NCBI GenBank assembly: GCA_031271905.1
Contig: JAISUT010000047.1
Span: forward strand, 90,350 to 141,434
Reading direction: 5' to 3'
DNA length: 51,085 nt
Source of the DNA: Acidobacteriota bacterium
GTDB lineage: Bacteria > Acidobacteriota > UBA6911
The translations under genes were made by a program, and so were the position numbers. Shown here one piece after another: positions 6,474-28,479 of this stretch (positions are counted from its first letter, which is position 1; every line of letters starts with the position of its first letter). The notes beneath the pieces are model-generated. The model ran no database searches and was not told where the DNA came from. It worked only from the letters and a program-made list of their open reading frames with translations.

Positions 6474-6739
6474 TCGCGTAAAAATCGCCCACCCGCCGGG
6501 CAAAACCTTCCCGTCAAGCCTCACTTCCAATATCTCGACGCTTTAAAACCAACGACTTGCGAATCTCCATTTCCTATGCGCCCGCGCGCACGGGCCTGGC
6601 ATTTGTTGCCCAGCCGCGACGCCGCCACGACAGCGGTCGCCAGCGCTCCGCACGACGCCTTCGCCATTGCGATTAAAACTTAAGTTTCCGTTGCTACTAA
6701 GCGATAAATAGAGCCGTGAGTCTTATTGGGATCGCGCAC

Positions 6740-9058
6740 ATGGATGCAAGAAGGATGGCAAGGATGGCGAGGACGGCATTGAAGACGCGCTATCTGGCGG
6801 CCGTTTGCGGATTCCTGTTGTTGACGCCCCCCCAGACGCCCCTGGGCGACGCCAGGGCTTCCGGGGGGGCGGGGGAGAACCCGCCGTTGCCGACGCTGGA
6901 GGTGCTGGAGTCCATGGTCGGGGAGAGCCCCGAGGTGCTCACGGCGCTGGCGGTGCTGGCACGCGACAGGTACGCGCTGGAACTGGAGGCGGGGCGGCTC
7001 TCCCCCTCGCTCGTCGGCGGCTTGGGGGGCGGCTTCTTCAACGAACCCGAGGACGTGACATCCCACGACATGAAGACCTACGGCCAGCTCACCGGCTCGG
7101 TCGGGGTCTCCTTCCCGCTGCTCGGCTCCTGGTCGCAGAAGAAGATCGCGAGGCTGCGGGCGGAGATACAGGCGTCGGCGGACTACCAGAAGACCCGCCT
7201 GGTCAGGCTCAGGAACCTCACCGCCCTGCGCAAGGCGTATTTCGCGCTCTGGTCGGAGCAACGGAAGCTGCCAATCCTCCAAGATTTCCTCGACGACGAG
7301 ACTCACGTCATGACGGTCCTGCGGGAGCGCATGGGGAAGAACCTGCTGCTGGAGTCCGACTACCTCGAGTTCGGAACCGCATTCGACGCGGTGCGCCGCG
7401 AGGTCGTGGAGTCGCGCATCAACAGCGCCCGCGCCCTGAACGTCATCGACCTGGCCACCGGCAGGAACTGGTCGATCCCCGCCAAAATCGAGACCCCGGA
7501 GATCCCCGGAGTCAAAAGCCTCCTCGCCGACATCTCGACGCACCCCGCCCTGCTGGAGAAGCAGGAGGCGGAGAAGCTTTACGAAGACATCCGGCGCAAC
7601 TCCCGCAACTCCGAGCGCAGCGCGAGCCTGGACGTCACCGTCCCCTTCACGCTGGACATCCCCGGCTCCCGGGGCGTGGGGATCGCCATCGGCTTCACCA
7701 TCCGCGAGCCCTTCGGCGCGCTCACGGCGGGCAAGGACGTCGCACAACTGGCGGCGAGCGCCGACGCCATCCGCGCCCGGCATGAGACGCGCTTCGCGCG
7801 CATGCGTCTGGAGGGCGAGTTCGCCGAGCAGGTCATGCTCCACGACTACGCCCGGGAGTCGTTGGACGCGCAGGTGAACCGCCTTTTGAGCGCGCGCCGG
7901 AGCGTCTTCGAGAAAATCGAGCGCTATGCGGCGCTCCCGGGCGACACCTTCGAACAACTCCAGCAGAGCCGCTACGCGCTCGTCCGCGTGGCGATGGACT
8001 TGTGCAACTCCGAGCTGCTCTACGCCGAGACCGCCGTGGAGATGACCGGCTACGTCGAGGAGCGGCAACAGACCGCGAGGACCAACCCCGTCCCCGACGC
8101 GGTGGAAAACGCGCGCCTGCTCAAGCTCCCCGGCTTCAAGCGGGAATCCGAGCCGGAGCTGGTCGCTTCGGCAGCCGGGGGCGCCGCCTCCGTCACCGCA
8201 TCCAGGGGCGCCTCGCCACGGGTCGCAGGAGAAGCGGCGGCGCGCGCCGCGACTGCAAGCGGATGGAGGCCCCTGCACCGGGGCGTCTTCGTATGGGACT
8301 CCAGCCTGCTCTCGGACGGGGAGGCGGCGTGGGGGGAGCTCAGGCGGCGCGGGATCACGCGCCTCCTCGTCTCCTTCTCCGCCAAGGAGATCGACCGGCT
8401 GATCGAGGACGACGGCGCATTGGACCGCTTCAACGAGATGTTCGCGGACGCGCGCGCCACCGGCGTGACGCTAGACCTCCTGCTCGGCGACCCGCACTGG
8501 CTGTTGGAGAAGCACAGGGAGCACCTGTACGACCTCATACGCTTCTTCTCCCCGTTCCCGTTCCGGCGCATCGTCCTGGACATCGAGCCGGATCAGCTCG
8601 GGGTGCCGGAGGAGCGGCGCGGCGAGCTGTTGGAGGCGCTGATAGGCACCGTGGCGGGGGTCGCGGAGGTCACAGACCTCCCGGTGGCGCTGACCCTGCA
8701 CCCGCGCTACCTCGAAGGCGACCTGGGGCGGCGCGCCATCCCGGCGTTCCGCGAACTGGGCGTGTCCGAGGTGATCCTGATGATCTACTCGACCAACGCC
8801 GAGAACGTCGCCTCGCGCTTCGCCGCGATCTGCGCCTCGGGCGGCGGGGTGCGGTTCTCGCTGGCGCAGAGCGTCGAGGCGGAGCTGCCCGACGAGGAGA
8901 GCTACCACCGGCGCGGCGCAGAAGCGCTGGAGGCGGCGATCTCCCGCACGGCATCCAAGGTGGACGAGTCGAAGCGGGCGGGCGCGTGCGCCGCCGAGGA
9001 CGTCGTGCTCCAGGACTGGAAGGGCTACAGGGCGATGGCGGGCGGAGGCGGGCGATGA
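6740..9058 (+). CDS. TolC-like outer-membrane channel fused to a C-terminal TIM-barrel hydrolase-like domain
   Basis: A 772-residue two-domain protein, first gene of the putative exopolysaccharide operon. An Arg-rich signal peptide (about residues 1-38) is followed by an outer-membrane efflux protein region (about 45-450) with long helices, TolC-like beta-strand stretches (LDVTVPFTLDI; GVGIAIGFTIREPFG) and heptad-like coiled-coil segments. An Ala/Ser-rich linker (about 455-510) leads to a region of about 250 residues that reads as a (beta/alpha)8 barrel: GVFVWDSSLL, RRGITRLLVSF, GVTLDLLLGD, RIVLDIEPDQLG and VSEVILMIYS. The acidic pair in LDIEPD sits where glycosidase barrels carry catalytic residues. 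TolC termini are periplasmic, so the barrel should face the periplasm, like the hydrolases of Pel, alginate or cellulose systems. ATG 6740 is chosen; GTG 6716 or ATG 6755/6764 are possible, the last having the best ribosome site. Overlaps the next gene (ATGA). Confidence 0.72.
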   Translation: MDARRMARMARTALKTRYLAAVCGFLLLTPPQTPLGDARASGGAGENPPLPTLEVLESMVGESPEVLTALAVLARDRYALELEAGRLSPSLVGGLGGGFFNEPEDVTSHDMKTYGQLTGSVGVSFPLLGSWSQKKIARLRAEIQASADYQKTRLVRLRNLTALRKAYFALWSEQRKLPILQDFLDDETHVMTVLRERMGKNLLLESDYLEFGTAFDAVRREVVESRINSARALNVIDLATGRNWSIPAKIETPEIPGVKSLLADISTHPALLEKQEAEKLYEDIRRNSRNSERSASLDVTVPFTLDIPGSRGVGIAIGFTIREPFGALTAGKDVAQLAASADAIRARHETRFARMRLEGEFAEQVMLHDYARESLDAQVNRLLSARRSVFEKIERYAALPGDTFEQLQQSRYALVRVAMDLCNSELLYAETAVEMTGYVEERQQTARTNPVPDAVENARLLKLPGFKRESEPELVASAAGGAASVTASRGASPRVAGEAAARAATASGWRPLHRGVFVWDSSLLSDGEAAWGELRRRGITRLLVSFSAKEIDRLIEDDGALDRFNEMFADARATGVTLDLLLGDPHWLLEKHREHLYDLIRFFSPFPFRRIVLDIEPDQLGVPEERRGELLEALIGTVAGVAEVTDLPVALTLHPRYLEGDLGRRAIPAFRELGVSEVILMIYSTNAENVASRFAAICASGGGVRFSLAQSVEAELPDEESYHRRGAEALEAAISRTASKVDESKRAGACAAEDVVLQDWKGYRAMAGGGGR

Positions 9059-10236
9059 AGGTGGTGCTGGACAAGCAACGCGCCTTGCAGGACGTCGCCG
9101 TGAGAGACGGCGTGGCGGTGAGCTACGCCCCGTCCAAGCGGGCGTTTCCGTGGATACGCTGGTGCCTGGTGGTCTTGTTGGTGACCAGCCCCCTGCTGTA
9201 CATACTCTACCGGCTCGCCAGCGACTGGCTCCTCGTGACCTCGCCGGCGGTCGTCGTCCTGGAGCGCGCGACGGTCTCCATGCCGGTGTCAGGGAAGATC
9301 GAAGGCCTCGCCGTGGCGCTAGACGACGAGGTGCGCCGGGGCGAGGTGCTGATGCGCGTGACCCCGGCGACGTACGACGACGACCTGCGCAACCTGGACT
9401 TGCTGCGGGCGCGGGTGGACGACTACGGCCGCGTGCCGAAGCTGGTGCAGGCCGCCGCCGCGCCCCAACCCCAGCCGCGCGCCAAGGTCTCCGAGGAGGC
9501 GTTGGCGATAGCCGCCCGCACCCTCGAATACTGGAGGGGGAACCGGCTGGCGTTCGAAGACCTGCAACGCAAGGGCGCGGCGACCGAGGCGGAGTACCGC
9601 GAGGCGCTCGAACGGGAGCAGGAGGCGCGCTCGGCGCTGATCCAGCTCCAAGAGGCGCATGCCGCGGCGGCGGCGCCCCAACAGCAGTCGCCCCTTCCGA
9701 CGCCGACGGAAAGCAGGGCGGACCTGCTCGAGCGGATGAACATCGACAACGAGATCGCCCTGCTTGAGAAACGGCTCGCCCCGCACGTGGTGACCAGCCC
9801 CGTCACCGGCAAGGTCGCAAAGGTCCTCGCAGGCGCCGGGCAGTCCCTGCCGCTGGGCGCGAACGTGCTGGAGATCGTCGGCGAGGACGGCGCGGAGATA
9901 CGGGTGTTCGCCGACGAGCGGGCGATGGGCTACTTCCGCTACGGCTCCGCGATCACGGTGGAGCTGCCGGGGGACGTGAAGATCCGCTGCGAGCTGCCCG
10001 ACAGGCCCATCCAGACGAGCGCCCCGCCCGCCGCGCCGGACAGGCCGTTCGCGGAAGGGAACGCCATCATGCTCCATCTGAGGCCGCTCGCCCCCCTGCC
10101 GGACCAGTACAGGGTGGACGGCCTGCCGGTCACGGTGCGTTGGGGCGTGTGGAAACCGAGTCTGCTGCGCCGCCTGCTGCCCGCAAGCGACACCGGGGAC
10201 GGCCAGACGGCATTCAAGGGGAAGAAGGGACGATGA
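9055..10236 (+). CDS. HlyD-like membrane-fusion (periplasmic adaptor) protein
   Basis: A 393-residue protein anchored by one N-terminal transmembrane helix (about 33-55, WIRWCLVVLLV...) with the rest periplasmic. The first half-lipoyl motif (VSMPVSGKIEGLAVALDDEVRRGEVLMRV, split by context at about 75-103) is followed by a helical hairpin of about 130 residues. The second half-lipoyl motif (VTSPVTGKVAKVLAGAGQ) lies near 245, then a beta-barrel-like region. This is the layout of HlyD/EmrA adaptors and of the periplasmic part of Alg44. It starts inside the stop of the TolC-TIM gene and its own stop overlaps the next start, which implies coupled translation. It probably connects the inner-membrane glycosyltransferase to the TolC-like channel. 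No PilZ domain is visible; c-di-GMP sensing seems to be handed to the next protein. Confidence 0.82.
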   Translation: MKVVLDKQRALQDVAVRDGVAVSYAPSKRAFPWIRWCLVVLLVTSPLLYILYRLASDWLLVTSPAVVVLERATVSMPVSGKIEGLAVALDDEVRRGEVLMRVTPATYDDDLRNLDLLRARVDDYGRVPKLVQAAAAPQPQPRAKVSEEALAIAARTLEYWRGNRLAFEDLQRKGAATEAEYREALEREQEARSALIQLQEAHAAAAAPQQQSPLPTPTESRADLLERMNIDNEIALLEKRLAPHVVTSPVTGKVAKVLAGAGQSLPLGANVLEIVGEDGAEIRVFADERAMGYFRYGSAITVELPGDVKIRCELPDRPIQTSAPPAAPDRPFAEGNAIMLHLRPLAPLPDQYRVDGLPVTVRWGVWKPSLLRRLLPASDTGDGQTAFKGKKGR

Positions 10237-11735
10237 GCGTCTTCGAGGACAGCGGAAAAAAACGGACGGAGGCGGCGGACTTCGACCATATGGTCGAGGA
10301 GGCGATGGCAGCCGACGCCATCCCCGCAACCAGGGAGGACGCCGGCCAGCCGTTGCGCATGGCGCGCTTCGCCCCGTCCCCCTTGCTCTTCACGGACTAC
10401 GGGGACAAGGTGCGCGACTTCAAGGAGATTTGGGAGCTGCTGGCGTCGGGCTGCAACGCCTTCTTCATCGACACGGAGGACGAGGAGGACGCGCTCATGG
10501 CGGCGGAGAGCATCCGCAGGAACCCGCCGTCGGCATACGCCCCGGTCTTCTCCTCGGCGCCGCACGGGCGCAGGTTCGAGGCGTTGGTGGACGGCGTGTC
10601 CGTGCGCATCGACGAGGCGCTGGGGAAGTCCGAGCCCCTGTTGCGGGCGCTGCGGGAGGTGAACAAGGAAGCGGTCGCGAAAAACAGCGACTTCCGGCTC
10701 CTCGCCTGGTTTTACATGCGGCAGGGGGTGGAGCTGAAACCCCTGGCCGCGCCCAAGACGGACGACATCTACGGATACCCCGTCGCCGAGTGCCTCGCCG
10801 CCGTCGGCGTGGATCACAAGCAGTGGCTCGACGGCCTGCGGGTCAGGGGCCAGCTCGCGCAAAAACGCCTGGTGGACAGGGTGAGGGTCTGCCCGAAATG
10901 CTCCTCGCCGCACCTGAACTTCATCGACGTCTGCCCGAACTGCCGGAGCATCGACATCTCGAAGAAGGAGCTGATCCACTGCTTCACCTGCGGCCGGGTC
11001 GGCGTCGCCGACCTGTTCGTCAGGGACAACTCGATGACCTGCCCCTTCTGCCGGGCGGCGCTGCGGCACATCGGGAGCGACTACGACCATCCTTTGGAAA
11101 GCTTCGTCTGCGAGGACTGCGCGGAGAGCTTCACCGAATCGCAGGTCTTGACGGTCTGCCACGACTGCGGCGCCCGCAACGCCCCGGACGAGCTGGACGT
11201 CCGCACCTATTTCACATACGCCCTGACCGAGAAGGGGCAGGTCTCGACCCGCATCGGCGAGATCGAGAACGCCTACGCGCTCTTCGACCGGCTCGGGGTC
11301 ATGAGCTACGCCTACTTCGAGCAGATGCTGGACTGGAACATCGGCATGTTGCGGCGCTACAAGAACGACCCGCCGTTCACGCTGATCGCGCTCCGGTTCG
11401 TCAACATCGACGAGATCGGCGACGTGGTGGGCAACGCCCGCACGGCGCAGATGATCGACGCGCTCACGGTGCGGCTCAAGAACATCATCCGCACCACGGA
11501 CATGGTCATGCGCCCGTCGATGGACACGCTCTGCTTCTTCCTGCCCCACACGGACGGCGAGCAGAGCCGCATCGTGACGGGGCGCATGGAGGCGTTGCGC
11601 GACGACGTGGTGCTCAAGGACGCGCCCAAGCTGCGGCTGTCGATAAACACGCGCACACTGCCGGAAAGCCCCAAGGAGGTGTGCGGGGAGGGGAGCGCCA
11701 AGATGCTCTTGCTGGGGATGACGGCGAACATCTAG
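10233..11735 (+). CDS. Multi-zinc-ribbon (TackOD1-like) protein with degenerate GGDEF domain; putative c-di-GMP receptor
   Basis: A 500-residue soluble protein. Residues about 45-145 resemble a degenerate receiver-like domain. Residues 220-312 hold six CxxC pairs (C220/223, 234/237, 250/253, 270/273, 293/296, 309/312), enough for three zinc ribbons, in the style of the TackOD1 output domain. Residues about 365-500 are a GGDEF-fold domain whose signature is lost (PSMDT at 428-432), while the inhibitory-site motif RxxD is kept as R420-T-T-D423 at the correct spacing upstream. This is the same logic as PelD, whose inactive GGDEF domain binds c-di-GMP through RxxD and switches polymer export on. 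I infer a cytoplasmic regulator of the GT2 synthase encoded next door, with no cyclase activity. It overlaps the adaptor gene (ATGA) and is followed 22 bases later by the GT2 gene. Confidence 0.75.
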   Translation: MSVFEDSGKKRTEAADFDHMVEEAMAADAIPATREDAGQPLRMARFAPSPLLFTDYGDKVRDFKEIWELLASGCNAFFIDTEDEEDALMAAESIRRNPPSAYAPVFSSAPHGRRFEALVDGVSVRIDEALGKSEPLLRALREVNKEAVAKNSDFRLLAWFYMRQGVELKPLAAPKTDDIYGYPVAECLAAVGVDHKQWLDGLRVRGQLAQKRLVDRVRVCPKCSSPHLNFIDVCPNCRSIDISKKELIHCFTCGRVGVADLFVRDNSMTCPFCRAALRHIGSDYDHPLESFVCEDCAESFTESQVLTVCHDCGARNAPDELDVRTYFTYALTEKGQVSTRIGEIENAYALFDRLGVMSYAYFEQMLDWNIGMLRRYKNDPPFTLIALRFVNIDEIGDVVGNARTAQMIDALTVRLKNIIRTTDMVMRPSMDTLCFFLPHTDGEQSRIVTGRMEALRDDVVLKDAPKLRLSINTRTLPESPKEVCGEGSAKMLLLGMTANI

Positions 11736-11757
11736 CCGGACAAGGAGGTCGTCGGGG

Positions 11758-13107
11758 ATGTACGAGGCATTCCTGTGGTTAGTCCGATTCACCTATGAGA
11801 GGTTCTTCGCCGGACAAGACCTGGTGCGCACACTGGTCGCCGTCTGCCCGTTCGTCGTCTTCATGGAGCTGCCCGTCTACGCGGTCGTCCTCCTCGGGTT
11901 GGTTCGGGGGCGTCTGCGCGCCGACGTCCGCGCCCACGGTCGGCGGAAAGCCGCAGCGCCCCGCAGGTACTTCCCCCCCGTCTCCTGCATCATCTCCTGC
12001 TACTCCGAGGGTCGCGACGTCGTCAAGACCATCCGGTCGGTCATGGGGCAGATGTATCCGGGGCGGATACAGATCCTCGCCGTGATCGACGGCGCGGCCG
12101 CCAACCGCGAGACCCGCGAGGCGGCGCTCTCCATGGTCGCGACCGTCAACCGGACGCCCAAGCGCGAGCTGAAGGTCGTCCCCAAGTGGCAGCGCGGGGG
12201 GCGGGTCTCCTCGCTCAACGCTGGCATGCTTTTCGCCGACGGCGAGATCGTCATCGCGATGGACGGCGACACCTCCTTCGACAACAACATGGTGTGGAAC
12301 GTCACGCGCCATTTCGAGGACGGGAACGTCTTCGCGGTGGCGGGCGGCCTGCGGGTGCGCAACGCATTCAGGACGATCGTCACGCGCCTGCAGGCGGTGG
12401 AATACTTCCTGTCGATCAACGCCACCAAGCTGGGGCTGTCGGAGTTCAACATGGTCAACAACATCTCCGGCGCCTTCGGCGCCTTCCGCCGCTCCGTGCT
12501 GGACGCGGTCATGGGTTGGGACGCCGGCACCGCCGAGGACCTGGACATGACGTTGCGCATCAAGAGCTACATGGGCAGGCACAAGGGGATGCGCATCGTA
12601 TATGACAAGGAGGCGATGGGGCACACCGACGTGCCGGAGACGCTGCGGGGCATCCTCAAGCAGAGGCAGCGCTGGGACGGCGACCTCGCCTACCTCTATT
12701 GCAGGAAGCACCCGCTCAGCATCTCCCCGAAGCTCGTCGGCTGGAAAAACTTCACCTACCTGCTGGTGAACGGGCTGGTCATCCAGGTGGTCATGCCGTT
12801 TCTGATCATCCTGTACATGCTCGTCGCCTACCTGACCTTCCCCGCGCACATGTGGTTCGCGCTGGCGTTGCTGACCTACGGCTTCTACGCCGCGATCACG
12901 CTCGGCATGCTGCTGTTTTCCATCCCCTTCGCCTCGGAGCGGCCGCTGTACGACATCAAGCTGGCGCCGTGGGCGCTCCTCGCGCCGCTGTACGGATTCG
13001 CCATCCGGCTCAACTGCGCGCTGGCCATCCTGTGGGAGTTCGTGGGGAGGGGCCACGACGACTCGTCCATGGCCCCCTGGTGGACGCTCAAGAAAAGCAA
13101 GTTCTAA
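11758..13107 (+). CDS. Family 2 processive glycosyltransferase (polysaccharide synthase)
   Basis: A 449-residue inner-membrane GT2 enzyme of the cellulose/hyaluronan/PNAG synthase class. It has a transmembrane segment at about 25-50, a cytoplasmic GT-A domain and several C-terminal transmembrane helices (about 325-435). The catalytic signature is complete: first Asp in AVIDG (D111), the DxD in AMDGDTS (D169/D171), the TED motif (AED, about 259-261) with the catalytic base, and QRQRW (302-306), the QxxRW motif of processive synthases. It has a good ribosome site (AGGAGG) and is last in the operon with the TolC-TIM, HlyD-like and zinc/GGDEF genes. It likely polymerises and extrudes a polysaccharide across the inner membrane. 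The sugar is unknown; no dedicated sugar-nucleotide genes lie beside it. Confidence 0.9.
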   Translation: MYEAFLWLVRFTYERFFAGQDLVRTLVAVCPFVVFMELPVYAVVLLGLVRGRLRADVRAHGRRKAAAPRRYFPPVSCIISCYSEGRDVVKTIRSVMGQMYPGRIQILAVIDGAAANRETREAALSMVATVNRTPKRELKVVPKWQRGGRVSSLNAGMLFADGEIVIAMDGDTSFDNNMVWNVTRHFEDGNVFAVAGGLRVRNAFRTIVTRLQAVEYFLSINATKLGLSEFNMVNNISGAFGAFRRSVLDAVMGWDAGTAEDLDMTLRIKSYMGRHKGMRIVYDKEAMGHTDVPETLRGILKQRQRWDGDLAYLYCRKHPLSISPKLVGWKNFTYLLVNGLVIQVVMPFLIILYMLVAYLTFPAHMWFALALLTYGFYAAITLGMLLFSIPFASERPLYDIKLAPWALLAPLYGFAIRLNCALAILWEFVGRGHDDSSMAPWWTLKKSKF

Positions 13108-13119
13108 CCTGCGGCGGCG

Positions 13120-14163
13120 CTACCTCCCCGAACCGGGGGTCCAGCCGTTGCCCAAGCCGTAGGGCAGGGTCACGAACGGGAACGCCTCCACATGGCGGAT
13201 GAGCCCGCCCCGGATGGCGAAGGTCTCCATCGTCACCAGGTTTTGCAACATCCCCGGCGGGTCGTCCGGCTTCGCCCCCCGGCGCGTGCCGTCGTGGACG
13301 AAGAGCGGGAAGGTGGCGACCAGCCCCTTCTGCTCGTCGATGACCAGCGCCCGGCGCGGCCTGATGCGCTTCATGTAGGCGAAGGTCTTCGAGTCGATCT
13401 GCTGGGCGCAAGTCAACATGCTGAACCGGAGCATCTCCCGGCCCTCGGGGGTCGAGGCGTCGGGCAAAAACGGCGCAGGCATCATCCGCCCACCGGGAGG
13501 CGGGTTGTTCACCGTCTGATAGCCGTTCTCGTGCCGGACGCAGTCGTCGCCGAACGCGCCGATCTTCCCGTCGTCCCCCTCCAGCGCGTCGAAGTAGGAG
13601 TTGGCGGCGCGAAAGAGCAGGTCGCGCGACGCCCGCTCCGCCGGCGGCACGTCCGTCGTCAGGACGGGTGCCGGCACCGCCAGCAGCTCCAAGGCGGCCT
13701 TGTCGATGTTGGTGTCGTAGAGCTGCTCGATCTCCTGGATCTTGCCGCGGTCCACCTTCAGCCGCACCGCGACCAGCGCGTCCTTCCCCCCGACCTTGAG
13801 CAACGCCTGCAAGGCGACCTGCCCGGAGACAGGGTCGGCGACGTGGATGGCGAAACCGGTCGGCGCCACTTTCGAACGCCACAACAACCCTTCGCCGACG
13901 TCCATCGCCCCGGTGTTCTCGGTCATCCGCACGTCGATGGCGAGGGGCGGCGTCGCCCCCGGGTCGTGCTTGAACATGGCGTCCATGTACCCGTCCATGA
14001 TCCCGACCAGGCAGCCCCGGTCGCAGGCCTTGACGGTGGACGGGTCCCATGCGGGTTCTCCGGCGTCCAGCGCCGGCGGGCCCGCCAGCGTCAACGACAC
14101 CACCAATGCGAAGGCGGCCGCCAGGGGGCGGGCGGGAAAAGACTCCTTTGGTGCAAACGGCAT
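13120..14163 (-). CDS. Secreted DUF8021-like (SnoaL/NTF2-type) protein
   Basis: A 347-residue exported protein with a signal peptide of about 30-35 residues. The mature part opens with CDRGCLVGIMDGYMDAM and then a 'LAIDVRMTENTG' segment. That is the pattern I associate with DUF8021/NTF2-like proteins, whose function is unknown. The C-terminal half looks like a second alpha+beta unit of similar size (EGDDGKIGAFGDDCVRHENG onward). The start at 14163 has GAGGAG eight bases upstream and gives a standard signal peptide. It is convergent with the exopolysaccharide operon, with only 12 bases between the stops, so it is not part of it. Family assignment is by memory of the motif and should be treated as moderate. 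Confidence 0.65.
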   Translation of the reverse strand: MPFAPKESFPARPLAAAFALVVSLTLAGPPALDAGEPAWDPSTVKACDRGCLVGIMDGYMDAMFKHDPGATPPLAIDVRMTENTGAMDVGEGLLWRSKVAPTGFAIHVADPVSGQVALQALLKVGGKDALVAVRLKVDRGKIQEIEQLYDTNIDKAALELLAVPAPVLTTDVPPAERASRDLLFRAANSYFDALEGDDGKIGAFGDDCVRHENGYQTVNNPPPGGRMMPAPFLPDASTPEGREMLRFSMLTCAQQIDSKTFAYMKRIRPRRALVIDEQKGLVATFPLFVHDGTRRGAKPDDPPGMLQNLVTMETFAIRGGLIRHVEAFPFVTLPYGLGNGWTPGSGR

Positions 14164-14272
14164 GGCGCGTCTCCTCATGCAATCGTGCAAAGCTCGTGCA
14201 ACAGGTTTCCGGACGAAGTCCGGACGCGCCGATCTTACTGCAAAACCGGGCGGCGGCGCGAGCGGAAATTTC

Positions 14273-25282: not shown

Positions 25283-25859
25283 CTCCCCCCCTTTATTTCT
25301 TCTAAAACCGCCAAAACCGTGACGCCATTCTATCAAAAAACGGGGTCGATCTTTCAAAACATCTTGTAGGGCAGACCAGGCATCTCGCCCGGGTCGGGGC
25401 GCCCGCCCGTCCGGGAGCCGCGAAGAGGGTCGCGACTACTTGGCAAAAATCGTAGAAACCGTGACGAGGCGCCCGCCCGGCAGTATTGGGCGATGCAACG
25501 CGCCGAACTGGAGGCTCAAGGAGTGAAGTTCGTTGACGAACCACCCGCCGACCGCCGACGGACGCCAGTCACCGACAACGTTGTGACCGGTGTTGAAGGA
25601 TTCTCCTTTTGAATAGGATGGGCGCGAAATTCGGCGGAGGCAGGGGTTGGTTCCGTGCCATAATGTCGGGGATTGAACGAGGGTGTTGCCATGTGCCGGT
25701 TGATGTTTGTCGTTGCGGCGTGCCTGTCTTGGAAAACTCCGCGGCGCTTTTAGCCGTGTCGCAAATATGAACATTGCAATAGAGCCCGACGACGGCGTGA
25801 AGAAAACTATGGAATTTTCGCCGACGTATTGGCGAAGATAGGTTAAGGGGGTGGGTGAG
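25283..25859. other. Gene-poor junction at the edge of the accessory island
   Basis: This 577-base stretch has no intact gene. It contains an exact copy of 38 bases from the fic gene (25433-25470). It also has a short plus-strand frame (about 25492-25611) coding for QRAELEAQGVKFVDEP-type sequence that ends in TGA and may be the tail of a degraded gene. I cannot name that family with confidence; a DJ-1/PfpI-like tail is one guess. The mixture suggests rearrangement scars. Confidence 0.5.
25433..25470 (+). repeat. 38-bp exact duplicate of a fic segment
   Basis: The 38 bases from CGACTACTTGG to GTGACGAGGC are identical to 25901-25938 inside the fic coding region (codons about 15-26). The flanks differ on both sides, so this is a small displaced duplicate, not a second gene. 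Confidence 0.9.
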
Positions 25860-26900
25860 ATGGCTAACAAACCGCCGTATACCATAACGGAAAAGGCCGC
25901 CGACTACTTGGCAAAAATCGTAGAAACCGTGACGAGGCTCGAATACGGCACAGGCTTCAAGCGGGACATCAGGCTGCATAGGGAGAACCGTGTGCGGACG
26001 ATCCACTCATCGCTCGCCATCGAGGGCAACTCTCTTACGCTGGGCGAAGTGACCGCCATCATTGAGGGCAGGATAGTCGCGGGCAAGCAGACGGAAGTTA
26101 AGGAAGTCAAGAACGCCTACGAAGCCTACGACAAGATAATGACCTTTGACCCTTACGCCGTGAAGGATTTCCTGAACGCCCACAAACTGATGATGCAAGG
26201 GCTTGTCGCCGAAGCGGGCAAGTTCCGCAGCGGCGATGTCGGCGTGTTCGACGGTGACGTTGCGGCGCATATCGGTGCGAGACCGCAGTTTGTTCCTGGC
26301 CTCATCCGTGACTTGTTCGATTGGGCAAAGGAATCCGAGCTTCACCCTTGCCTGAAAAGCGCAATCTTGCATTATGAAATTGAAACGATTCACCCGTTTG
26401 CCGATGGCAACGGTAGAATGGGACGGCTTTGGCAAACGCTACTTCTCGCAAAATGGAATTCCATTTTTGCATGGATTCCGATGGAGTCCGTCATGTATGA
26501 AAAGCGACCGCAATACTATCAGGCAATCGAGGCTGCGAGAAACGCAAACGATTCCGGCGTGTTTATCGAGTTTACGTTTTCGGCGGTTTTGGACACCATC
26601 ACCGACCAAGAAAAGCACCAAGTTGAGCACGAAGATAAGCACCAAGTCGAACTCAGCGACACGCAAATTGACGTGCTGAAGTCGCTCGAAGGTAAAACAT
26701 TGTCACGCAAAGAGGTTTTTTCAACGATTGGACTGAACGGCGATTCTCGCGCATTCAAACGTCACATAGAACCGCTCATTGAAGCGGAACTCGTAGAGAT
26801 GACCGTGCCGGACAAGCCGAACAGCCGACTGCAAAGGTATAGGTTGACAGAAAGTTGCAAGGCGGCACTGATAAAAAAACGCCGCGATATTACTGTGTGA
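25860..26900 (+). CDS. Class II Fic-domain protein (probable AMP transferase)
   Basis: A 346-residue protein. An N-terminal Fic/DOC-type helical region carries the autoinhibitory motif (S/T)xxxE(G/N) as S51-L-A-I-E55-G56, marking class II Fic proteins that are held inactive by their own N-terminal helix. The catalytic loop HPFADGNGRMGR (178-189) is complete, with the His and both Arg residues. A C-terminal winged-helix region (about 270-340, SDTQIDVLKSLEGKTLSRKEVF) follows. It should transfer AMP or a related group to a protein target. Start codon ATG 25860 is preferred over GTG 25851; AAGGGGG lies upstream. GC content is visibly lower than that of neighbours outside the island. Fic proteins of this type often sit in defence islands, and a BREX gene fragment lies 350 bases downstream. 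Confidence 0.9.
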   Translation: MANKPPYTITEKAADYLAKIVETVTRLEYGTGFKRDIRLHRENRVRTIHSSLAIEGNSLTLGEVTAIIEGRIVAGKQTEVKEVKNAYEAYDKIMTFDPYAVKDFLNAHKLMMQGLVAEAGKFRSGDVGVFDGDVAAHIGARPQFVPGLIRDLFDWAKESELHPCLKSAILHYEIETIHPFADGNGRMGRLWQTLLLAKWNSIFAWIPMESVMYEKRPQYYQAIEAARNANDSGVFIEFTFSAVLDTITDQEKHQVEHEDKHQVELSDTQIDVLKSLEGKTLSRKEVFSTIGLNGDSRAFKRHIEPLIEAELVEMTVPDKPNSRLQRYRLTESCKAALIKKRRDITV

Positions 26901-27000
26901 CGGTACTGAGCCATATATTTTCGTTACGTCAAAATATGATGATGTCGTAGTAAATGCGCCTGGTGTCGTAACAAATGTCGTAAGAAATGATGGTAGTGTC

Positions 27001-27258
27001 GTGGAAAATGACACGACAAATAGCGGCGATGTCGCAAGAAATGGCGATATTCACTCTGATGCTGGCAACATACAGAATGAAATACTAAGAATTATCCGCA
27101 GCCAGCCGACCATTACATCTCAAAAGTTGGCCGGTTTGCTTAAAATCTCTCCGCGAACCGCCCAGAGGTATCTGAAAATATTATTAAAGAGCTCAGGTAT
27201 TATTCAGCGTTTGGGTGCGTCAAAAAATGGCGAATGGATTGTTTCGGAGAACCAATAA
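27001..27258 (+). CDS. Small winged-helix DNA-binding protein, possibly the tail of a larger lost gene
   Basis: Eighty-five residues with a clear winged helix: NEILRIIRSQPTITSQKLAG, LLKISPRTAQRYLKIL and a wing at IIQRLGASKNGEW. The GTG start at 27001 is uncertain. The same frame is open back to 26875 and reads an Asn/Val-rich low-complexity stretch (VVVNAPGVVTNVVRNDG), which looks like the linker before the HTH in AlbA_2/ATP-binding-type regulators. No good ribosome site is seen, so this may be a 3' remnant whose N-terminal domain was replaced by fic. Its TAA overlaps the ATG of the pglZ fragment by one base, so the two were once coupled. Ancillary winged-helix regulators of this sort are common beside BREX genes. 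Confidence 0.55.
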   Translation: MENDTTNSGDVARNGDIHSDAGNIQNEILRIIRSQPTITSQKLAGLLKISPRTAQRYLKILLKSSGIIQRLGASKNGEWIVSENQ

Positions 27259-27581
27259 TGTTGAATTCCAGTATACAACAACGATTATCTGAGAGATTTT
27301 CTGCGCCGTTGCCGGAATTTCACAAACGACGCATCGTCTTCTGGCACAACGAGTTTGGCGAGTTCGGCGAGGCGGTCGATGAACCGGCTCTTGATGGCGT
27401 GACTCTCGTGAAACGCACGGGCAAGAGCAACTTTGCTGTCAAGAAACTGCTCTCCGCAGACGACCTGACGAACGGCTACCTTGTCTACGCCCTACCGACC
27501 TACGATAAGGAAAGCAAGGACGACCGGCTTCTTGACATGCGCCTGTACGGCGAGGAGTTCCGCACCGGCCCCGTGTCGTGA
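27258..27581 (+). pseudogene. pglZ: 5' fragment of BREX-1 pglZ (alkaline-phosphatase-superfamily protein)
   Basis: The frame encodes 107 residues that match the N-terminus of type A PglZ: an RRIVFWHNEFGEFGEAVDE block followed by LDGVTLVKR, NFAVKKLL, GYLVYALP and DDRLLDMRLYGEEF, then it stops after ...TGPVS. Full PglZ proteins exceed 800 residues, so about 87% of the protein, including the phosphatase domain, is missing. No brxC, pglX or brxL lies nearby. The cut is followed 62 bases later by an 85-bp MITE-like element, which may mark the deletion. I read this as a relic of a BREX phage-defence locus; the fragment itself should be non-functional. Confidence 0.8.
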
Positions 27582-27642
27582 ACCGCACCCTATTGCCTAG
27601 ACCAGATTTTCTGAAAAATAAAGTGTATTACCGCTATAGGTT

Positions 27643-27727
27643 GAGACTGTAAAATGAACTGTGTAACCGATAACAAATAAGAGTAAAAAGACAAAAGAAG
27701 CGGTTGCGTAGTTCATTATACAGTCTC
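27643..27727. mobile_element. MITE-like element with about 27-bp inverted ends (IS256-like)
   Basis: The left end begins GAGACTGTAAAATGAACT (27643-27660) and the right end, read in reverse complement, begins GAGACTGTATAATGAACT. The match continues through (A/G)(C/T)G(T/C)AACCG, giving about 27 bp of inverted repeat with roughly five mismatches around a centre of about 30 bp. These ends resemble those of IS256-family insertion sequences. There is no transposase inside and no clear target-site duplication. It may also act as a hairpin between the convergent genes on either side. Confidence 0.65.
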
Positions 27728-27732
27728 TTTTT

Positions 27733-28479
27733 CTATTTGAACTCGGCAATTTTGGCCATCGTTGCGCGGTTGTATATCGTCAATTCCAGCAGGTCACCAG
27801 ATAACGTCACCTTTCCTTCTCCGTACATGCGAACCATGCCGCCTAGCATGTTTCTCCCACCGAAGTCTGTCTTTACAAGCACATATCCGTCTGTTTGTGT
27901 GCGGTCTGCAAACGTTGTCTTGTAATGCGCGTAACTTCCGGGGTCGTTGAGCCATTCTTTTATCGTCTTCTCGACGATGCGGCACGAACCGTCCCATGCA
28001 CTGAAAAGCCGTTCGACTTCTTCTTTATGGATCTCCTCGGCTGTCTTTTCCGGCTGCTTTTCGGTTGTCTTTTTCTTCTCCCCTGTGTTGCACATGTGGA
28101 AAAACATCACCCCCAAAAGAAAGACGGCTATCACTCCGGCGCAACTCGTCATCATTTTTTTAATTTGCCCTTCTGAAGACGGTTTGCCCTTGGCGGCGGC
28201 AACCTCTTTGTTTTCCAGTTCGCGCCCGCAGTAGCGGCAGACGACGGCGGCGGCTTTTATCTTCTCGGCGCAGTAAGGGCACGTCTTTTCACCGTCATCC
28301 GACGGGATGCCGGAGGCGGCGTTGCCCGACGGATTGTTTTCCCTGCGCTTAGCTTCGTCTCGGATGACGGCTTGGGCCTCTGCTGAATAGTCTCCCATGT
28401 GGTCAAGGGCTTCAACAAGTTCCTCGTCTGTTTTCCCCCGCCAAAGCTCTGTCAGACGTTGCCTCATTGTTGTCGTCAT
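27733..28479 (-). CDS. Zinc-ribbon membrane protein of unknown function
   Basis: A 248-residue protein. The N-terminal 55 residues are charged and helical. A zinc ribbon follows: CPYCAEKIKAAAVVCRYCGR (two CxxC pairs, about 67-86). One transmembrane helix lies at about 111-130 (CAGVIAVFLLGVMFF), then a Lys/Glu-rich linker and a C-terminal domain of about 95 residues. The C-terminal part has the look of small periplasmic domains that measure or bind something (DGYVLVKTDFGGRN...), but I do not recognise a family. It starts seven bases after the DUF2846-like gene and is probably co-transcribed with it. Codon use is less GC-biased than in the core genes, which fits an acquired island. Confidence 0.7.
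   Translation of the reverse strand: MTTTMRQRLTELWRGKTDEELVEALDHMGDYSAEAQAVIRDEAKRRENNPSGNAASGIPSDDGEKTCPYCAEKIKAAAVVCRYCGRELENKEVAAAKGKPSSEGQIKKMMTSCAGVIAVFLLGVMFFHMCNTGEKKKTTEKQPEKTAEEIHKEEVERLFSAWDGSCRIVEKTIKEWLNDPGSYAHYKTTFADRTQTDGYVLVKTDFGGRNMLGGMVRMYGEGKVTLSGDLLELTIYNRATMAKIAEFK

Follow-up and report, generated by a model that had tools for sequence, protein, structure and literature searches.

A conserved Mxd-like operon in an Acidobacteriota genome, with a predicted HlyD/outer-membrane-factor route for exopolysaccharide export

We analysed a 51,085-nucleotide stretch of DNA (the window) from an Acidobacteriota bacterium (GenBank assembly GCA_031271905.1, contig JAISUT010000047.1, positions 90,350–141,434 of the forward strand), focusing on four contiguous open reading frames (ORF1–ORF4) on the same strand at 6740–13107. 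Based on domain content, structural models and motif conservation, these genes probably encode a synthase-dependent, Mxd-like exopolysaccharide system that is gated by cyclic di-GMP (c-di-GMP) and exports its product through a conduit of a HlyD adaptor and an outer-membrane factor (OMF). The gene borders, when re-read, were identical to those of an earlier reading of the sequence (the original prediction) and lie exactly where it placed them, with ATGA overlaps at 9055 (ORF1/ORF2) and 10233 (ORF2/ORF3) and a 22-base spacer between ORF3 and ORF4 (11736–11757). ORF1 begins with an ATG at 6740 and has an alternative in-frame GTG at 6716. The features of the operon are as follows:

6740–9058, plus strand: ORF1, OMF (TolC/OprM-type) with a C-terminal TIM-barrel glycosidase-like domain (Pfam OEP, AlphaFold model, Foldseek)
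8240–9055, plus strand: TIM-barrel domain of ORF1 (alignment of 47 sequences, model with a predicted local distance difference test score, pLDDT, of 93, structural matches)
9055–10236, plus strand: ORF2, HlyD/EmrA-type periplasmic adaptor with one N-terminal transmembrane (TM) segment (HlyD_3, hydropathy)
10233–11735, plus strand: ORF3, MxdA-like soluble protein with an N-terminal region, a TackOD1 zinc ribbon and a degenerate GGDEF domain with I-site RTTD (PF18551, PF00990, motif statistics)
11758–13107, plus strand: ORF4, putative processive family 2 glycosyltransferase (GT2) synthase, PgaC/NodC/hyaluronan-synthase-like and MxdB-like (Pfam GT2 families, motifs)

The four genes are a real conserved unit. 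A scan of genome contigs yielded at least 570 relatives of the receptor-type protein ORF3, of which the best-scoring 80 loci were read, so the frequencies given here are not those of all 570. These loci span Pseudomonadota, Thermodesulfobacteriota, Synergistota and others; profiles of the four operon proteins were run over all of their ORFs, and 71 neighbourhoods were uncut by a contig end. Receptor, GT2 and HlyD genes recurred in all of the complete neighbourhoods (71/71) and the barrel in all but one (70/71), on which grounds a chance cluster was rejected; the original prediction had proposed this co-occurrence as its check, with unlinked genes elsewhere counting against it, and the genes do stay together. 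In 60 of the 70 barrel-positive loci the barrel sits on a long, channel-sized protein, and six of the seven long barrel proteins scanned exceed the Pfam OEP cut-off. The most common order was receptor, GT2, channel/barrel, HlyD (52/71), and the window order of channel/barrel, HlyD, receptor, GT2 was found in 8/71 (five Synergistota and three metagenome-assembled genomes (MAGs) labelled Bacillota). Genes overlapped or were separated by no more than 30 bases in 86 of 87 receptor–GT2 pairs and in 73 of 73 barrel–HlyD pairs, counts that use mechanical ORF starts, which may be over-extended.

This linkage, seen in many phyla and in both gene orders, bears on whether ORF1 and ORF2 could instead belong to an independent pump (type I or efflux), with receptor and GT2 as mere neighbours. 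ORF2 is HlyD-like, as had been proposed, with HlyD_3 (36 bits) and Biotin_lipoyl (23.5 bits) domains and a single N-terminal hydrophobic segment, and together with the OMF it would fit an ordinary tripartite system; its profile matches are EmrA/MdtN-like, including TIGR00998 at 51.9 bits, which is under that model's cut-off. However, by Pfam the operon encodes no ABC, RND or MFS energiser, leaving the GT2 as its sole polytopic inner-membrane protein, and receptor–GT2–HlyD cassettes also travel without the channel, on plasmids of Plesiomonas, Photobacterium, Rhodobacteraceae, Roseibium, Phyllobacterium, Aminobacter and Methylocystis. We consider a separate pump very improbable. The cassette can ride mobile DNA, because a receptor–GT2 pair, reaching the end of the record, is carried by a 29-kb mobilizable plasmid of Aeromonas caviae (L042, 9848–12217).

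Gating by c-di-GMP is suggested by ORF3, which matches TackOD1 (PF18551, 211 bits) and GGDEF (PF00990, 29.6 bits) and, having no TM segment by hydropathy, should be soluble. The zinc ribbon, the degenerate GGDEF domain and the separate, soluble nature of the receptor were all features of the original prediction. The active-site motif reads SMDTL instead of GG[DE]EF, and the canonical form occurs in 0/90 relatives, which does not fit an active diguanylate cyclase. An RxxD motif five residues ahead of the GGDEF motif is the I-site of diguanylate cyclases; ORF3 retains it as RTTD, and it lies exactly five residues before the degraded catalytic motif in 85/90 relatives. Eleven of the twelve paired cysteines of the zinc ribbon are present in 90/90 relatives and the twelfth in 85/90. 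Because the catalytic motif is lost and the I-site kept, we interpret ORF3 as a receptor-type GGDEF protein that would bind c-di-GMP; PelD and BcsE, both established receptors of c-di-GMP, likewise combine an I-site with a degenerate GGDEF domain (PMC8461298).

Alternatively, instead of sensing c-di-GMP, the TackOD1/GGDEF protein could be a scaffold like those of archaeal pilus loci and response regulators, with gating by protein partners such as CheY. The function of TackOD1 has been called obscure, and the domain is found in thaumarchaeal pilus loci and alongside receiver domains (PMC5847659); this archaeal work was all that a search of the open-access literature for TackOD1 returned. A scaffold would also agree with the binding of CheY3 by MxdA (PMC7666153) and with alphaproteobacterial relatives of ORF3, which lack RxxD. 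One copy, on a Roseibium plasmid (L046, 8038–9948), has a true receiver domain ahead of TackOD1 and lies among Hpt and response-regulator genes, and this system may be phospho-gated. Nevertheless, the I-site has persisted in nearly all relatives although the catalytic motif is lost in every one, and MxdA is reported to be a c-di-GMP-binding effector (PMC11395469); we regard a pure scaffold as improbable.

ORF4 carries TM segments by hydropathy and has the motifs expected of a processive GT2, which had been described as intact and proved invariant in the eight sequences aligned (D111, D169xD171, E260-D261 and Q302xxRW306). By profile it is nearest to PgaC and NodC, and among solved structures to hyaluronan synthases. 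It scores 131.7 bits against PgaC_IcaA (TIGR03937; cut-off 422.3) and is therefore not assigned to the PgaC equivalog, while NodC (85.9 bits) and the other GT2 families also stay below their cut-offs and the CelA model gives 27.5 bits (cut-off 699). The NodC score leaves some room for a small product, either a glycolipid or a short oligosaccharide as with NodC- or HpnI-like enzymes, that would leave through the HlyD/OMF pair; small molecules or proteins are the usual cargo of such pairs. Against a short product stand the invariant processive motifs, QxxRW included, the proximity to hyaluronan synthases, and the presence of a barrel domain and a c-di-GMP-type receptor, which are typical of matrix systems (PMC8461298); we judge it unlikely.

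ORF1 (772 amino acids) is, according to its structural model, a TolC-type channel joined to a TIM-barrel glycosidase-like domain, in agreement with the channel and barrel of the original prediction. The Pfam OEP match is weak but above the cut-off (23.4 bits against 22). A full-length AlphaFold model, built on 30 sequences from the window and the genome collection, has a mean pLDDT of 86 and low confidence in the linker at about residues 454–509. Residues 53–436 show the helix-strand-strand-helix pattern twice, which is the OMF repeat topology, and the top Foldseek matches are CusC, TolC and OprM (E = 2e-16 to 1e-14). When the last ~260 residues (about 510–770) were modelled alone on 47 sequences, they formed an eight-stranded TIM barrel (pLDDT 93). 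The top VIA-align match of this domain is the GH18 chitinase 6k7z (Z 18.6 over 231 residues, 3.6 Å), followed by Cwp19 (Z 18.0) and then by many tied glycosidases, including PgaB glycosidase domains (Z 15.6–15.8).

Four residues are invariant in the 47 barrel sequences (D114, E116, M181 and Y183, in domain numbering), and we take their position and spacing to match two parts of the GH18 motif, DxE and MxY. The complete DxxDxDxE motif is absent, lacking its first two aspartates; no Pfam glycoside hydrolase family matched the domain, and the barrel profile, searched against PDB sequences, found weak matches only. The barrel is placed in the periplasm because TolC has its termini on that side, which is general knowledge and not a result of the model. 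From these residues it is plausible that the family are hydrolases, less surely so for the window copy. The claim that a hydrolase is fused to the channel thus stands for a hydrolase-like barrel, with the activity itself an inference.

Together, these features suggest the following mechanism. Rising c-di-GMP would bind the I-site of ORF3, and the loaded receptor would dock on the GT2 and activate it. The synthase would then polymerise a UDP-sugar, most likely of N-acetylglucosamine type because ORF4 resembles PgaC and NodC, and would extrude the growing chain through its TM pore. ORF2, the HlyD adaptor, would connect the synthase with the outer-membrane channel, where the periplasmic barrel domain may trim or edit the chain ahead of release, and the polymer would be used for aggregation or to form biofilm. 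Pfam detected no TPR, PilZ or porin-type domain in the four operon proteins, as had been noted before. The tripartite TolC/HlyD export route of the original prediction is supported as an OMF/HlyD pair in place of a TPR porin, and polysaccharide production and c-di-GMP binding stay at the level of prediction.

Several observations weigh against this proposal. The barrel is a protein of ~300 amino acids without a channel in 10/71 neighbourhoods (nine Pseudomonas and one MAG labelled Synechococcus), and on several alpha- and gammaproteobacterial plasmids the cassette consists of receptor, GT2 and HlyD alone; because of these two sets of loci, an operon-encoded channel is, as judged from gene content, inessential to the core. 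Passage of a polymer through a channel of TolC width is conjecture. The fold matches of the barrel are tied among many glycosidases, and a histidine that is near-invariant in its relatives (45/47) is a valine in the window, where the barrel may be inactive as a hydrolase. No sigma-70-like −35/−10 promoter was found upstream of the operon, which proves little. Lastly, the presumed homology to Mxd is drawn from matching gene composition.

Mxd of Shewanella oneidensis is the closest described system. The mxdABCD operon, which is required for three-dimensional biofilm, encodes the c-di-GMP effector MxdA, the GT2 MxdB and the efflux-type MxdC (PMC3691769, PMC7666153); mutants in mxdA or mxdB no longer aggregate or form biofilm, and the three-dimensional biofilm is missing in mxdB mutants (PMC3691769, PMC7666153, PMC11395469). 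An effector, a GT2 and a HlyD/efflux-type protein in one operon are common to both systems as judged from the published composition, and gammaproteobacterial plasmid cassettes show the order A-B-C. Unlike the window operon, Mxd as described has no channel–glycosidase protein, and mxdD encodes an uncharacterised protein.

Two further systems pair a GT2 with a HlyD-like protein. The XcsA–XcsB(HlyD-like)–TolC route for cyanobacterial cellulose export (Maeda 2018) was, in the account given in PMC12430437, proposed without experimental proof. As outlined there, it resembles the window operon in its GT2, HlyD-like adaptor and TolC path, c-di-GMP control and nearby glucanase, and differs in having PilZ on the synthase, TolC outside the operon, a separate glucanase and a cellulose-type GT2; membership of the window operon was rejected given the lack of PilZ and the CelA score. 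BgsA/BgsB of Rhizobiales, which makes a mixed-linkage glucan, likewise combines a c-di-GMP-activated GT2 with a HlyD-like partner (PMC9495663), but c-di-GMP binds the C-terminus of the GT2, and the bicistronic operon has no separate receptor, channel or hydrolase. The original prediction had called the system a candidate undescribed one, which holds only in part, given that the receptor–GT2–HlyD composition is that of Shewanella MxdA-B-C, that GT2/HlyD/TolC export had already been proposed and that BgsA/BgsB was known.

The poly-N-acetylglucosamine (PNAG) system PgaABCD shares a PgaC-like GT2 with the window, whose barrel fold resembles the TIM-barrel hydrolase domain of PgaB. Membership was rejected on the PgaC score and on the absence from the operon of the TPR porin PgaA, a deacetylase domain and PgaD. 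The outer-membrane parts of the Pel and alginate systems are of TPR/porin type and not OMFs. Pel resembles the window operon in the degenerate GGDEF domain and RxxD I-site of PelD (PMC8461298) and differs in using a GT4. In the alginate system, Alg44 joins a periplasmic membrane-fusion domain, which works with the GT2 Alg8, to a c-di-GMP receptor (PMC8461298), but Alg44 carries PilZ. What appears new here is the OMF–glycosidase fusion and its wide conservation; we found no precedent for this fusion, nor for a single operon encoding the channel together with the adaptor, receptor and synthase.

TackOD1 is present as a single copy in the window's own genome. No full-length receptor match was found in 14 members of its genus and family, and of 396 genomes from the phylum just one more (G131) has TackOD1 above the cut-off; its operon (L050) has the window gene order but a very distant GT2. 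By comparison, 32 of 188 Synergistota genomes carry TackOD1, and the window genome is absent from those listed. The window GT2, 58% identical to one Synergistota copy, falls on a long branch within a Synergistota/Bacillota clade of identical gene order (support 99/94). From this placement, horizontal transfer from a Synergistota-like donor is the probable origin of the operon, and the simplest reading, because the GT2 lies inside the Synergistota clade while relatives of the window genome lack the set. OMF-type operons also occur in three MAGs labelled Bacillota (L077, L095 and L130), whose GT2s group on a long branch within the Synergistota clade; the contigs stem from a diderm lineage or else are misbinned and Synergistota-like. 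In G131, the operon is followed by a 696-amino-acid protein (L050, 6580–8670) that matches polysaccharide deacetylases weakly (13 bits, below the cut-off), hinting at an N-acetylated polymer there.

Elsewhere in the window, a 356-amino-acid protein with a signal-like N-terminus (13123–14190, minus strand) is convergent with the operon and has no Pfam or NCBIfam match. At 26001–28000 the G+C content falls to 0.49, against ~0.65 around it, in a segment adjoining a Fic/DOC protein (25851–26900), and a recent insertion is possible there.

More broadly, we tentatively suggest, at somewhat less than even confidence, that these operons represent a widespread, unnamed class of polysaccharide exporter in which a c-di-GMP-activated, processive synthase replaces the ABC or RND pump of a TolC/HlyD machine, with a glycosidase built into the channel subunit for editing at the channel mouth. 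If the proposed system is correct, it would place the poorly understood Mxd biofilm machinery in a family and supply it with a signature for the receptor, a prediction of how the polymer is exported and a candidate enzyme for editing it; it would also bring the GT2/HlyD/TolC route suggested for cyanobacteria into single, testable operons.

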